Source: Candidatus Kutchimonas denitrificans (lineage in GTDB: Bacteria > Gemmatimonadota > Gemmatimonadetes > Palauibacterales > KS3-K002). Taken from it: a stretch of 64,000 bases of DNA. The notes under the pieces were generated by a model. The model ran no database searches and was not told where the DNA came from. It saw nothing but the letters and a program-made list of their open reading frames with translations. Where the stretch lies: NCBI GenBank assembly GCA_011774835.1, contig JAACAK010000130.1:1-64000 (forward strand), given 5' to 3'. A program made the translations under genes and the position numbers. Shown here in pieces: positions 3,198-39,598 of this stretch (position 1 is its first letter; every line of letters starts with the position of its first letter).

Positions 3198-3566
3198 ATG
3201 ATCCGACTCTTCTTCATACTGGGCGCGGCTTCCGCACTGATCGGCGTCGCCGCCGGCGCGTTCGGCGCCCACGGGCTCCGGGAGCGGCTGACGGCGGAGA
3301 TGCTGGCGGTCTGGGAGACGGCGGTCCGCTACCAGCTGGTCCACGCGCTGGCCCTGCTGGCGACGGCGTGGGCGCTGACCCGCTGGCCGGGGCGCCCGGG
3401 CGAGCTGGCGGGCTGGCTGTTCGTCGCCGGCACGCTGCTCTTCTCCGGCAGCCTCTACCTGCTGGCCGCCAGCGGCCAGCGCTGGCTGGGGGCCATCACC
3501 CCGGTCGGCGGCCTGGCCTTCCTGGCGGGCTGGGCCGGCCTGATCTGGACCGCCTGGCGGGGCTAG
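3198..3566 (+). CDS. DUF423 small membrane protein
   Basis: The 122-residue protein has about four hydrophobic segments and the family's hallmark N-terminus (GAASALIGVAAGAFGAHGL), followed by the VWETAVRYQLVHALALL segment. DUF423 proteins are widespread inner-membrane proteins of unknown function. It ends 4 bases before the CLC gene and is probably co-transcribed with it. Confidence 0.88.
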   Translation: MIRLFFILGAASALIGVAAGAFGAHGLRERLTAEMLAVWETAVRYQLVHALALLATAWALTRWPGRPGELAGWLFVAGTLLFSGSLYLLAASGQRWLGAITPVGGLAFLAGWAGLIWTAWRG

Positions 3567-3570
3567 CCCC

Positions 3571-5622
3571 ATGAGCGCGCTCCGCGCCTTACTCGTCTGG
3601 CTGCGCGCCGCCCACCGGCGGTTCCGGCAGACCGAACAGCTCTACATGGTGGCCGTGGCAACCTTCGTCGGCCTGTTCGGCGGCCTGGGGGCGGTGGCCT
3701 TCCGGGCGCTGATCGTGTGGGTGAACCAGGTTGCCTGGCGGCAGGGACCGGTGACGTTGGATCACCTGGCCGGGCTGCCGCCGTGGTGGAAGGTGGCGGC
3801 GCCGGCGGTCGGCGGCCTGTTCGTCGGGCTCATCACCTACCGCTTCGCCCGGGAGGCCCGGGGCCACGGCGTGCCCGAGGTGATGGAGGCGGTGGCGCTG
3901 CGCGGCGGCCGGATTCGACCCCGGGTGGTGCTGGCCAAGCTGTTCGCGTCGGGCATCTGCATCGGGTCCGGCGGCTCGGTGGGCCGCGAGGGCCCGATCG
4001 TGCAGATCGGCTCGGCGCTGGGCTCGACGATCGGCGGCTGGCTGAAGATCGACCGGCGGCGTCTGCGGACGCTGGTCGGCTGCGGCGCCGCGGCGGGGAT
4101 CGCCGGGACGTTCAACGCGCCGGTGGCGGGCGCGCTGTTCGCGGTGGAGGTCATCCTCGGCGACTTCGGCGTGGCCCAGTTCTCGCCCATCGTGATCTCG
4201 TCGGTGGCCGCCACCGTGGTGAGCCATTATTTCCTGGGCGACGTGCCGGCGTTCGAGATCCCGGCCTACAGTCTGGTCCACGCGTCGGAGCTGTTCGCCT
4301 ACGCCGGCCTCGGCGTCCTGGCCGGCCTGGTCGGCCTCGGCTTCGTTCGGACTCTATATAAGATGGAGGATGCGTTCGAGCGGCTGCCCGCGCCGTTCGC
4401 GGCGAAGGCCGTGCTGGGCGGCGCGCTGGTGGGCGTGATCGGGATCTGGGCGCCCCAGGTGTTCGGCGTCGGCTACGACGCGATCACCGAAGCCCTCCAC
4501 GGCGGAATGGCGTGGAGCTTCCTGCTGGCCCTGGTCGTGCTCAAGGTGCTGGCCGTCTCGATCACCATCGGGTCCGGCGGCTCCGGCGGCATCTTCGCGC
4601 CGTCGCTCTTCATCGGCGCCATGCTGGGCGGCGCCGTCGGCACGGTGATCACCACCATCTGGCCAACGGCCACCGCGGGGCCTGGGGCCTACGCGCTGGT
4701 CGGGATGGGCGCCATCGTCGCCGCCGCCACCCACGCGCCGATCACCGCCATCCTGATCATCTTCGAGCTGACCGGCGACTACGAGATCATCCTGCCGCTG
4801 ATGATCAGCTGCATCATCGCCACGCTGCTGGCCACCCGGCTGCAGCGCGCCTCGATCTACACGATGAAGCTCTTGCGCCGCGGCGTCGACGTGCACCGGG
4901 GCCGGGCGATCAACGTGCTGCAGCACGTCTTCGCCCGGGAGGTGATGCGACGCGACTTCGTCACCGTCCCGGCCGACTCCCCTCTCAACGCCATCATCTC
5001 CCGCTTCGTCGACCACCCCGGCAGCACGCTGTTCGTGGTCGACGAGGAGGATCGACTGGAAGGGGTGATCACCGCCGAGGAGATCCGCCCGGTGATGCGC
5101 GACCCGGCGGCGTTCGAGTCGTTCATTATCGCCGAGGACGTGATGGTCGAGGGGCAGTTCCCCACCGTCTCGGCCGATGACCCACTGGCCGACGTGATGA
5201 AGTTCCTCGGCACTTACCGCGGCGAGGTGCCGGTGATGGAGGATGGCCGGATGGTGGGCGTGATCTGGCCCGAGGACGTGATCGCCCGCTACAACACAGA
5301 GGTGTTCAAGCGCGACATGGCGGGCAGCATGGCCGCGGCGGTCAGCCCGCCATCATCGACGGGTGCAATGCCTGCGGCGGGCGACGCGGTGGTGGCGGAG
5401 CTGAGCGTCCCATCGTCGTTCCACGGCCGCTCGATCCGCGATCTCAACATCCGCCAGGCCTACAGCGCCACCGTCCTGATGATCAAGCAGACCAAGATCG
5501 ACGGCCGGGAGACCATCATCACGTCGATCGATCCGGACTACGCGTTCAGCCCGGGAGATATCATGCTGGTCCTGGCGCCAGAGGAGAACATCCGGCGGCT
5601 GAGGGCAGCGGCGGGACAGTGA
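3571..5622 (+). CDS. CLC-family chloride channel/transporter with CBS and TrkA-C domains
   Basis: This 683-residue membrane protein has a CLC core in about residues 25-440. Anion-pore motifs are clear: GHGVPEV, GSGGSVGREGP with gating Glu140, and GSGGSGGIFAPSLFIG. Two CBS motifs follow at about 455-575, then a TrkA-C-like region at about 600-680. In the FNAPVAGALFAVEVI stretch, the position of the E. coli ClcA internal proton glutamate (E203) is Val194, as in animal CLC channels. This suggests uncoupled chloride conduction, but some prokaryotic exchangers also deviate here. The CBS and TrkA-C domains suggest nucleotide or ligand control. Confidence 0.92.
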   Translation: MSALRALLVWLRAAHRRFRQTEQLYMVAVATFVGLFGGLGAVAFRALIVWVNQVAWRQGPVTLDHLAGLPPWWKVAAPAVGGLFVGLITYRFAREARGHGVPEVMEAVALRGGRIRPRVVLAKLFASGICIGSGGSVGREGPIVQIGSALGSTIGGWLKIDRRRLRTLVGCGAAAGIAGTFNAPVAGALFAVEVILGDFGVAQFSPIVISSVAATVVSHYFLGDVPAFEIPAYSLVHASELFAYAGLGVLAGLVGLGFVRTLYKMEDAFERLPAPFAAKAVLGGALVGVIGIWAPQVFGVGYDAITEALHGGMAWSFLLALVVLKVLAVSITIGSGGSGGIFAPSLFIGAMLGGAVGTVITTIWPTATAGPGAYALVGMGAIVAAATHAPITAILIIFELTGDYEIILPLMISCIIATLLATRLQRASIYTMKLLRRGVDVHRGRAINVLQHVFAREVMRRDFVTVPADSPLNAIISRFVDHPGSTLFVVDEEDRLEGVITAEEIRPVMRDPAAFESFIIAEDVMVEGQFPTVSADDPLADVMKFLGTYRGEVPVMEDGRMVGVIWPEDVIARYNTEVFKRDMAGSMAAAVSPPSSTGAMPAAGDAVVAELSVPSSFHGRSIRDLNIRQAYSATVLMIKQTKIDGRETIITSIDPDYAFSPGDIMLVLAPEENIRRLRAAAGQ

Positions 5623-21454: not shown

Positions 21455-21486
21455 TTGACCTTATACCATGGTGTAGGGTTTAGCTT
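21455..21486 (+). promoter_or_regulatory. MerR-type operator-promoter of the mercury/selenoprotein operon
   Basis: TTGACC (-35, 21455-21460) is followed by a long 19-20-base spacer and TTAGCT/TAGCTT as -10. The spacer carries the dyad ACCTTATACC / GGTGTAGGGT (8 of 10 positions complementary). An overlong spacer with a centred dyad is the signature of promoters untwisted by MerR-family activators. A GGAGGGAG ribosome site at 21508-21515 precedes the first gene. Confidence 0.85.
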
Positions 21487-21521: not shown

Positions 21522-21842
21522 ATGACTGTAGAGCTTCTGTATTTCGACGGATGTCCGGCGGAGCCGGCCGCGTTCGCACTGCTCGAGCGGGTGCTGGAAG
21601 AGGAGAACGTGTCCGAGCAGGTTCAGCGAATCGCGGTTCCCGGCCCGGCAGCGACGACGGAGTTGCGCTTCATCGGCTCGCCATCGATCCGCATCGACGG
21701 CGTCGACCTCGAGGGCCCGGACGCCGAGGACGAGCTCGGTTTCGGCTGGCGCTGTCGGCAGTACTCGGAATCGGAGCCCGGCGAGTCGAAGGCCGTTCCC
21801 TCGGCGGAGCTGATCCGCCGCCGCCTAAAGGAACGGGAGTGA
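21522..21842 (+). CDS. DF-family thioredoxin-like small protein of mer-type operons
   Basis: The 106-residue protein begins VELLYFDGCPAEPAAFALLERVLEEE, a thioredoxin-like beta-alpha start with a single Cys11 in YFDGCP. It continues with GSPSIRIDGVDLEG. This matches the small family that NCBI labels 'DF family (seleno)protein', found beside mercury genes; some relatives use selenocysteine. Here the residue is Cys. It is the first gene of the operon, directly behind the MerR operator. A thiol-based role with organomercury or Hg(II) is inference. Confidence 0.75.
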   Translation: MTVELLYFDGCPAEPAAFALLERVLEEENVSEQVQRIAVPGPAATTELRFIGSPSIRIDGVDLEGPDAEDELGFGWRCRQYSESEPGESKAVPSAELIRRRLKERE

Positions 21843-21846
21843 CGGG

Positions 21847-22326
21847 ATGAAGGCGGAGACCGGGACGACCCGATCCGATGCGACGCGCCTGCAGATCGGC
21901 GAGCTGGCGGATCGGGCGCGGGTGAACGTCCAGACGATCCGCTACTACGAGCGTCGCGGCCTGCTGGCGGAGCCCGAACGCACGCCGTCCGGTTATCGGC
22001 TCTATGCGCCCGAAACGATTCGGGTCGTTCGCTTCATCAAGAGCGCCCAGGGGCTGGGCTTCTCGCTCGAGGAGATCGACCACCTGCTGGAGCTGCGGGA
22101 CAGTCGGGCATCGAGCTGCGACGAGGTCAAAGAACTCGCGCGGGCCAAGATTGCGGCGGTCGACGAGAAGGTCCGTCGGCTGGCCGCGCTGAAGGGCGCG
22201 CTCGAGACCCTGGTCGAAAGCTGCGAGCGAGGCGACTGCGAGCGCGAGTGTCCGATCCTCGAGGCGATGGAGGAGGAGCCTGGCCAAGACGCAATCGGCG
22301 CGGTCACGGAGCGCCGCGAGCGCTAG
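21847..22326 (+). CDS. merR: MerR-family regulator, Hg(II)-type
   Basis: The 159-residue protein has the MerR winged-helix N-terminus (IGELADRARVNVQTIRYYERRGLL). Three Cys residues, 91, 126 and 135, have exactly the spacing (35 and 9) of the mercury-binding Cys82/117/126 in Tn501 MerR. This strongly suggests Hg(II) sensing. It lies inside the operon it should control, as its second gene, 4 bases after the DF gene. GGGAG precedes its ATG. Confidence 0.9.
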   Translation: MKAETGTTRSDATRLQIGELADRARVNVQTIRYYERRGLLAEPERTPSGYRLYAPETIRVVRFIKSAQGLGFSLEEIDHLLELRDSRASSCDEVKELARAKIAAVDEKVRRLAALKGALETLVESCERGDCERECPILEAMEEEPGQDAIGAVTERRER

Positions 22327-22357: not shown

Positions 22358-22744
22358 ATGGAAGCCCGAACGGCTCAACTCGATAAGCGGCGCAAGGATC
22401 TGTCGGGTAATCGAGTCCTCAACTTCGTGCTCTGGCGAGTGCCGGTGATTCTCATCCTGGTCGCCATGCTGTGGCCGGCGGTCAGCGCCGAACTGTGGAC
22501 CGTGGCACTGGCCTGGATCGGTGCCGGCTGCACCTGGAACGCCCTACGCTGCAAGCGCGTCCATTGCTCCATCATGGGCCCGCTCTTTCTCCTCCTCGCC
22601 GCGCTGTCGGGTGCCGCGACCCTGGCCTGGCTATCCGTCGACTGGAACTATCTGGGACTTGCCGCGCTGATCATCGTGGCCGCGGCGTTCCTGCCCGAGC
22701 TCCTGGGAAAGAAATATTTCGGAAGCGAGGGTTCCGCATGCTGA
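22358..22744 (+). CDS. Small membrane protein with CKRVHC motif
   Basis: The 128-residue protein has about four membrane segments (22-42, 45-62, 74-92, 98-113). A CKRVHC motif (Cys65, Cys70) lies at the start of TM3, with Cys58 nearby and Cys128 as the last residue. AAGGAAGGAAG precedes the ATG. Similar unnamed proteins occur next to mercury genes, and the Cys pair suggests metal or thiol relay. It stays in frame with the following gene across its TGA stop at 22742, but there is no motif or hairpin to support readthrough. Confidence 0.72.
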   Translation: MEARTAQLDKRRKDLSGNRVLNFVLWRVPVILILVAMLWPAVSAELWTVALAWIGAGCTWNALRCKRVHCSIMGPLFLLLAALSGAATLAWLSVDWNYLGLAALIIVAAAFLPELLGKKYFGSEGSAC

Positions 22745-22780: not shown

Positions 22781-23158
22781 ATGCCGAATAGTTCTGAAGT
22801 AGAGCGTAAGATGAAGGGACTGGTTCAGACGGGCTCGCTCATCGGAGCAGCGGTGGCATCACTGGCCAGCGCAGCGGCGAGCATCTGCTGCATCGGACCG
22901 CTGGGCATCGCCCTCCTGGGCGTGAACGGAGCGATCCTCGCCGCCGGCATCAAACCTTACCGGCCTTACCTGCTCTTTGGATCACTGGTGCTGATCGGTC
23001 TCGCCTTCTGGGGGGTGTATCGCGGCAGGCGCGGCCGTCACGGCGCCGCCTGCCCGACACGTTCCGCGAGAATCACGCGTCTCATCGTCTGGATCTCCAT
23101 CGTCGTCTGGATCGGCGCGCTGGCCATCGGCGTCGCCGCCGACAACTACTGGCTGTAA
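22781..23158 (+). CDS. merT: MerT-like mercuric ion transport protein
   Basis: The 125-residue protein has three predicted membrane segments. The first carries ASICCIGPLGIALLGV, the vicinal Cys pair that accepts Hg(II) in MerT. A further Cys lies in the loop (AACPT). MerT moves Hg(II) into the cytoplasm for reduction by MerA; no MerA or MerB is in this window. ATG at 22811 is an alternative start. The selenoprotein candidate follows 17 bases later. Confidence 0.85.
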   Translation: MPNSSEVERKMKGLVQTGSLIGAAVASLASAAASICCIGPLGIALLGVNGAILAAGIKPYRPYLLFGSLVLIGLAFWGVYRGRRGRHGAACPTRSARITRLIVWISIVVWIGALAIGVAADNYWL

Positions 23159-23175
23159 CATACAGAGGACCAACC

Positions 23176-23739
23176 ATGAATCCGATTCTCCGTTCTACCC
23201 TTCTCCCGGCGGTTGTCGCCGCCTGCGCCAGCGCGGTCAGCGCGGATTATGTCGTCCTGAATACGGATGCCGAGCCGTTCCGGTCGAAGTTCAACGCCGA
23301 TGCGGACAGGGTTCGGGTGGTCATGCTGGTCGCACCCACTTGAGGCGGATGTCTTCGGGGGGCCTCCGAAGTACAAGAACACGTACTTGAGCAGATCGAT
23401 GACCCCGACCTGCGCGCGTTCGTCGTCTGGGTCCCGCGGAACGGCGCGAGAGAGAATCATGTCGAGCGGGTTACCCGACTGGTAACGGACGCACGAGCGA
23501 CCCAGTACTGGGATGCCGGCGGGGCGGTGATCGACCCCTACACCGAGACGCTGCAGCTGACGGGGCCATGCGCCGGTGTGTTCCTCATCTTCGCGCCAGG
23601 TGTTACCTGGACGGACGACGGGCCGCCGCGCCCGGATCACGTGGAAGACGCGCACGCGCGGCAGTATGATCGACCGTGGCCACAGTTCGATGCGGAACGA
23701 TTCGCCACGAGGGTTCGAGAGCTTCTGGACGAGAACTAG
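23176..23739 (+). CDS. Secreted thioredoxin-like selenoprotein (Sec at codon 56, TGA 23341-23343)
   Basis: The reading frame from ATG 23176 (with AGAGGA upstream) to TAG 23737-23739 is open except for one TGA at codon 56. Read as selenocysteine it gives 187 residues. These comprise a signal peptide (cleavage probably near AVSA-DY), a beta strand VRVVMLVAPT, then Sec56-Gly-Gly-Cys59, followed by a helix and FVVWVPRNGARE. UxxC in place of CxxC, right after a beta strand, is the thioredoxin active-site position. Coding texture and frame continue unchanged to the stop. A SECIS-like hairpin follows the TGA. It is the last gene of the mer-type operon. The alternative is a nonsense mutation (pseudogene), which the position of the TGA argues against. 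Confidence 0.8.
23344..23374 (+). promoter_or_regulatory. Candidate bacterial SECIS element
   Basis: Directly after the in-frame TGA the RNA can form CUUCGG (23353-23358) paired with CCGAAG (23366-23371). The pairing extends by G-U and G-C to a GGC apical loop at 23361-23363. U23365 could instead be bulged. A loop starting with G about 17 bases after the UGA fits the known bacterial SelB-binding geometry. Confidence 0.7.
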
Positions 23740-39081: not shown

Positions 39082-39537
39082 TCACCTGGCGGCCGAAGGG
39101 GTCTTTCGCGCCGCCGCCGATCCAGCCGCCTCCTCGATGATCCGGCAGCGGCAGCCGGCCCCGGCGGTGCCTTCTTCGTCTCCGGTCCTGGACAGCGCAT
39201 CCGCGAGCCGCCTCTCCAGCTGCCTGAGCTCGCCGATCCGTCTCCGGGTCTCGAGCAGCCGTTCCTCCAGCGCGCGCCGCACGTGCTGGCACGGCTCACG
39301 CTCCTCATCGACGATCGCCAGAACGTCAGCGATCTGGCCCAGCGTCAATCCGAGCGCTTTGGCCTGGTCCACGAACCGAAGCCGGTCCACAGCCTCCACG
39401 CCGTAGATCCGGTAGCCCGCCTCGCTCCGCCGGGGCTCGGGAAGCACGCCCGCTGCCTCGTAGTAGCGGATCGTGTCACGGCTCGCCCCGCTCTGCTCGA
39501 CGAGCTCTCCGATGAAAAAGGATTCCTGGGTGCCCAT
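39082..39537 (-). CDS. MerR-family heavy-metal regulator of the island operon
   Basis: The 151-residue protein has the MerR DNA-binding start (FIGELVEQSGASRDTIRYYEAAGVL) and a coiled-coil dimer helix. Metal candidates are Cys83 (EPCQH) and a C-terminal CRC (Cys129/Cys131). The spacing does not match Hg-type MerR (35 and 9), so the inducer is probably another metal. GGAGGTCGC before the ATG is its ribosome site. It is the first gene of the operon and lies right behind a strong MerR operator, so it is autoregulated. Confidence 0.88.
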   Translation of the reverse strand: MGTQESFFIGELVEQSGASRDTIRYYEAAGVLPEPRRSEAGYRIYGVEAVDRLRFVDQAKALGLTLGQIADVLAIVDEEREPCQHVRRALEERLLETRRRIGELRQLERRLADALSRTGDEEGTAGAGCRCRIIEEAAGSAAARKTPSAAR

Positions 39538-39567
39538 GCGACCTCCGGGTTCGGGGATTACTCCTTC

Positions 39568-39598
39568 ATGGTAACCCTGGAGTCCACTCTAGGGTCAA
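39568..39598 (-). promoter_or_regulatory. MerR-type operator-promoter of the island operon
   Basis: On the minus strand: TTGACC (39598-39593), 19-base spacer CTAGAGTGGACTCCAGGGT, TACCAT as -10 (39573-39568). The dyad ACCCTAGAGT / ACTCCAGGGT matches at 9 of 10 positions. It drives merR and the four genes behind it. Confidence 0.9.

Follow-up and report, generated by a model that had tools for sequence, protein, structure and literature searches.

The window analysed here, a stretch of 64,000 nucleotides from Candidatus Kutchimonas denitrificans, contains a mercury operon whose last gene is a putative selenoprotein gene. The operon comprises the following features:

21455–21485, forward strand: MerR-type operator/promoter from a script scan, consisting of TTGACC, a 19-base spacer with the dyad ACCTTATACCATGGTGTAGGGT, and TTAGCT
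21522–21842, forward strand: DF family (seleno)protein in its Cys form (FDGCP); NF049942, 87.2 bits (cut-off 70)
21847–22326, forward strand: merR of the Hg type; TIGR02051, the top MerR model, 142.6 bits (cut-off 150.85)
22358–22744, forward strand: small membrane protein with the Cys-rich loop CTWNALRCKRVHC, between merR and merT
22781–23158, forward strand: merT, mercuric transport protein; PF02411, 48.7 bits (cut-off 32.9), E 9e-13
23164–23169, forward strand: ribosome binding site AGAGGA, 6 bases 5' of the ATG, read directly from the sequence
23176–23739, forward strand: putative thioredoxin-fold selenoprotein gene of 187 residues, ATG to TAG, with Sec at residue 56
23341–23343, forward strand: putative Sec-encoding TGA, codon 56 and first position of the UGGC motif, in a column shared with the homologues
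23353–23371, forward strand: SECIS-like hairpin, CTTCGG / loop GGGGCCT / CCGAAG, at +13 to +31 relative to the TGA

The profile matches agree with the gene order of the original prediction, namely a DF family gene, merR, a Cys-bearing membrane protein, merT and a TGA-containing frame. An Hg-type merR, merT and a MerR operator, the marks of a mer operon, are all present, and similar long-spacer dyads were found at four related loci (L031, L035, L038 and L040). MerR domains were matched in the window MerR at E 1e-19. Its residues C91, C126 and C135 are invariant in six MerRs, and their spacings of 35 and 9 are identical to those of Cys 82, 117 and 126, the residues that bind Hg in Tn501 MerR. 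In MerT, the CC pair of membrane helix 1 is invariant in 11 homologues. The membrane protein with the CTWNALRCKRVHC loop matched no Pfam or NCBIfam model over its cut-off and was not found in the related loci. None of the operon's five proteins matched an HMA/MerP domain. No merA was detected in the 64-kb window, and none over the curated cut-off in the 87%-complete genome (best match 392.7 against 454 bits). A selenocysteine form of the DF family (NF049942, deep-Sep) is known from Desulfosediminicola (PMC12013277); the copy here, the first gene of the operon, has Cys and is distinct from the UGGC protein. Elsewhere in the window, a second MerR-family gene (39277–39598, reverse strand) has its own long-spacer dyad promoter, TTGACCCTAGAGTGGACTCCAGGGTTACCAT, and probably encodes a different metal regulator.

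Only 17 bases separate the end of merT from the selenoprotein gene. Translation of the window bore out the predicted frame of 187 residues with a single in-frame TGA at codon 56, in the context ...MLVAPT-U-GGCLRGASE..., and a TAG stop; the predicted ribosome binding site is likewise present, and the N-terminus, judged by eye, resembles the signal peptide that had been proposed. As had been anticipated, a standard gene caller would end the frame at codon 55 and cut the gene in two. The next large frame downstream, which by eye resembles a RecQ-type helicase, lies on the opposite strand, so that the mer and selenoprotein genes stand alone as a set.

From the comparison of homologues and the genes of the host, we conclude with very high confidence that the ribosome reads the TGA at 23341 as selenocysteine. 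The presence of selA, selB, selC and selD had been suggested as a check, and all four were found in the host genome (3.76 Mb, 149 contigs, 87% complete): tRNA-Sec (selC) at 77.8 bits, SelB at 370 bits, SelA at 565 bits and SelD at 366 bits (G000:C100:52328-53254), the last with one internal TGA, as in known Sec-containing SelD proteins. In 395 genomes of the host's phylum, 16 other matches were obtained. One of these (G192/L030, E 4.7e-4) was unrelated and was dropped, and the remaining 15 are genuine. A look at residue 56 in Cys-containing relatives had been proposed as a check, and of the 13 other genomes whose homologue covers this residue, ten show TGA, three show Cys (as at L037) and none a third residue; Sec or Cys always occupies one alignment column, within PT-U/C-xx-C. 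The genomes of all ten TGA-form relatives encode SelA and a tRNA-Sec above the Rfam cut-off, and no tRNA-Sec above that cut-off was found in G160, a genome with a Cys form. Downstream of the TGA, pN was 0.17–0.29 against a pS of 0.52–0.78, indicating purifying selection, as upstream. The Sec/Cys tree of the homologues is weakly resolved and requires at least two changes, and the ancestral state is not readable from it.

Searches outside the phylum yielded little. GTDB contigs scanned for exact peptides and for Cys-only patterns gave few matches, which is not evidence of rarity since Cys was back-translated as TGY and TGA forms are thereby missed. Plasmid records contained no match to the selenoprotein, and no homologue was found in 399 genomes of a gammaproteobacterium's phylum, in a search that had no positive control.

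The hairpin just 3' of the TGA would direct Sec insertion. Its apical loop starts with G, as expected of a bacterial SECIS. Among seven close Sec forms, pairs with an identical residue at codons +3 to +9 after Sec also shared its codon in 123 of 141 cases (87%), against 398 of 929 (43%) in the remainder of the core, and the hairpin stretch was the best of 77 seven-codon windows. All nine Sec forms of clades I and II have TGT and GGG codons at the hairpin; all three Cys forms have TGC and GGC instead, and the hairpin is lost. The hairpins at L036, L039 and L041 are built from other bases, and L042 and L044 have a different one (CGGGCAA-GGTG-TTGTCCG and CGGACAA-GGTG-TTGTCCG), with a change from G-U to A-U. 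Folded as a single sequence, the window hairpin has an energy that is only modestly low, since 56 of the 1000 synonymous shuffles were as low; because such energies are only mildly unusual, the case for a SECIS element rests on codon conservation. Bacterial SECIS elements vary, and the absence of an Rfam match at this position is therefore expected. On another reading, the TGA would be a genuine stop or a mistake, and the gene a pseudogene, a source of a shortened peptide of 55 residues, or an artefact of sequencing. This agrees with where gene callers would end the frame but is effectively refuted by the intact and selected frames on either side, the conserved hairpin, the complete Sec machinery, the Cys forms, and the recurrence of the same TGA in ten other genomes, which rules out a sequencing error.

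The product is predicted to be a thioredoxin-fold protein with a Sec-Gly-Gly-Cys active site. The AlphaFold2 model, obtained from an alignment of 14 members, had a pLDDT of 91.7 and placed residue 56 after strand 46–52 and at the opening of helix 57–71, which is the place of the thioredoxin active site and matches the proposal of a thioredoxin-like UGGC motif directly after a beta strand. A Foldseek search of the PDB placed the model nearest to TlpA/ResA/DsbE-type thioredoxins, which are secreted (best E 5.6e-5); a sequence search of the PDB gave chance-level matches only. In the alignment, the Pro of TGPCAGVF is a candidate cis-proline in clade I and is missing from some members of clades II and III. 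Clade I, which includes the window protein, has a Cys adjoining this proline (TGPCAG) that may possibly serve as a third ligand. The domain was not recognised by any Pfam or NCBIfam model in any of the 14 members, the thioredoxin-type models, including TlpA/ResA and Redoxin, being without a significant match. A 2026 inventory of 119 selenoprotein families lists no such family (PMC13188914). Their recurrence in ten other genomes makes these thioredoxin-fold selenoproteins a real protein family, and one that appears to have gone undescribed so far.

The relatives provide a strong but inferential link between this family and mercury. In all 11 loci with room for it (L031–L041), merT lies directly upstream of the selenoprotein gene. 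At L034 (3402–4289, reverse strand), MerT and the UGGC Sec domain are fused in one open frame in which the TGA is kept. MerT and MerTP fusions have an established topology in which the partner at the C-terminus lies in the periplasm. This would put the Sec domain of L034 there as well, which fits the signal peptide seen on the free forms. Between merR and merT, DF-like genes occur at L031, L035 and L038, with weaker matches to NF049942, and at L040, where the gene was found by tblastn with the L031 protein as query. MerB is encoded at L035 and L041.

From the computed Sec coding, family, predicted fold, gene neighbourhood and MerT fusion, we infer a mechanism comprising induction by Hg, periplasmic location, Hg binding and Hg transfer. 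Mercury would induce the operon through MerR, and the UGGC protein would be secreted to the periplasm as the partner of MerT. Most likely, its Sec/Cys pair would capture periplasmic Hg(II) and hand this ion on to the CC pair of MerT helix 1. The UGGC protein would thereby fill the position held by MerP in classical mer operons, a reading suggested by the lack of an HMA match in the operon and by the L034 fusion, which mirrors MerTP. We consider the chances of this mechanism as a whole to be about even. Three points count against it. Many proteins with a thioredoxin fold that are encoded next to membrane transporters act as reductants rather than metal carriers, the very tight bonds between Hg and selenolate might hinder the hand-over to MerT, and the host genome lacks a MerA over the cut-off, which leaves the fate of imported Hg unexplained.

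The main rival of the relay model is that the selenoprotein is a periplasmic thiol-disulfide reductase that does not carry Hg, and would instead keep the cysteines of MerT (and of the DF protein) reduced or repair thiols damaged by Hg. We regard this as quite possible, short of favouring it: the UxxC motif occupies the thioredoxin active-site position, the nearest folds are reductases, and Cys forms stand in for Sec as they do in ordinary redox families. However, no electron donor of the DsbD/CcdA type was recognised among the operon genes, and the MerT fusion suits a carrier at least equally well. A further alternative, in which the selenoprotein really acts on an organomercurial or on some other soft metal(loid) and the mer genes are reused as a scaffold, would account for the MerB in two operons and for a MerR score slightly under the curated cut-off, but seems unlikely given that MerR keeps all three Hg ligands at exact spacings and that MerT exceeds its Pfam cut-off.

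A second clade of the selenoprotein, encoded at L042 and L044, has a UPVC motif, and merT was not detected near either gene. Directly upstream of the UPVC gene at L044 lies a gene (3280–4650, reverse strand) for a flavoprotein resembling MerA and dihydrolipoyl dehydrogenase (TIGR02053, 388.7 bits, below the cut-off of 454), in whose redox motif, GGTUVNEGCVPTK, a TGA replaces the first Cys. The same TGA occurs in a flavoprotein of another genus at 94% identity (genome G116, L101/L102, G116:C26:57841-59211), and the end of the flavoprotein gene is also found upstream of L042. Sec at the first redox Cys of such a flavoprotein is not in the inventory of selenoproteins (PMC13188914), and an open-access full-text search returned no report of it. 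On the strength of these sequences, the L044 and G116 proteins are candidates for a new Sec flavoenzyme. Because no clear SECIS hairpin was found behind the flavoprotein TGA, this case is weaker than that of the UGGC protein. It is conceivable, though rather doubtful, that the phylum has a selenium-dependent mer pathway, with a Sec-thioredoxin in the place of MerP and, in one lineage, a MerA-like Sec flavoprotein beside a second Sec-thioredoxin, so that a selenol would act at two Hg steps.

A merA-like remnant with several stops was observed at L041 (13779–14926, reverse strand), where it precedes genes for MerB, an AraC-type regulator, MerT and the Sec protein. The TGA-containing merA-like fragment at this locus (genome G239) was considered as a Sec protein and rejected, since it looks like a decayed gene.

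The detection of this family connects selenium with bacterial mercury handling. The affinity of selenols for Hg is exceptionally high, and much of the toxicity of Hg to animals is attributed to this bond. A Sec protein conserved beside, or fused to, a mercury transporter would point to a bacterial use of the Hg-selenol bond in detoxification. The family also adds to the known selenoproteins one that current curated models miss and gene callers cut in two, and it opens the question whether Sec serves as an Hg ligand to a direct test on a single small soluble protein and its naturally occurring Cys counterpart.

Several known systems resemble the UGGC protein in part. Thioredoxins of the TlpA/ResA/DsbE type (PDB 1lu4, 3ios and 2f9s) are also secreted and share the fold and a CxxC-type motif that opens a helix, but identity to them is 9–15% and the TM-score 0.45–0.49 by query length, and the window protein has Sec for Cys, lies in a mer operon and lacks their Pfam models. 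The SaoT (NF040730) and HUIPC (NF047660) selenoproteins are likewise thioredoxin-like with a UxxC motif, and SaoT is part of a gene set linked to organometals, whereas the genomic setting of the window protein differs. Neither model matched the window protein at E up to 10 or any of the 14 members at E up to 1; the suggested kinship with Sec-linked organometal (Sao) systems thus found no sequence support, no NCBIfam model, that of SaoT included, matching at E up to 10. MerP and the MerTP fusion (NF033556) also stand beside MerT or are fused behind it, and offer a presumably periplasmic site of two chalcogens for soft metals. MerP consists of an HMA domain of ferredoxin-like fold with GMTCxxC, in contrast to the thioredoxin fold with UGGC, and by analogy the UGGC protein may work like MerP while not being a member of its family. 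Sec also occurs in a MerT-linked protein in the MerT/CopZ fusion-like heavy metal transport selenoprotein (NF045683), and a Sec-containing MerT (PF02411) with a C/SxxU motif has been reported (PMC13188914). Judged by names and motifs, Sec lies in the MerT or CopZ-like part of those proteins, whereas in the window MerT has ordinary Cys and Sec lies in the thioredoxin-fold domain.
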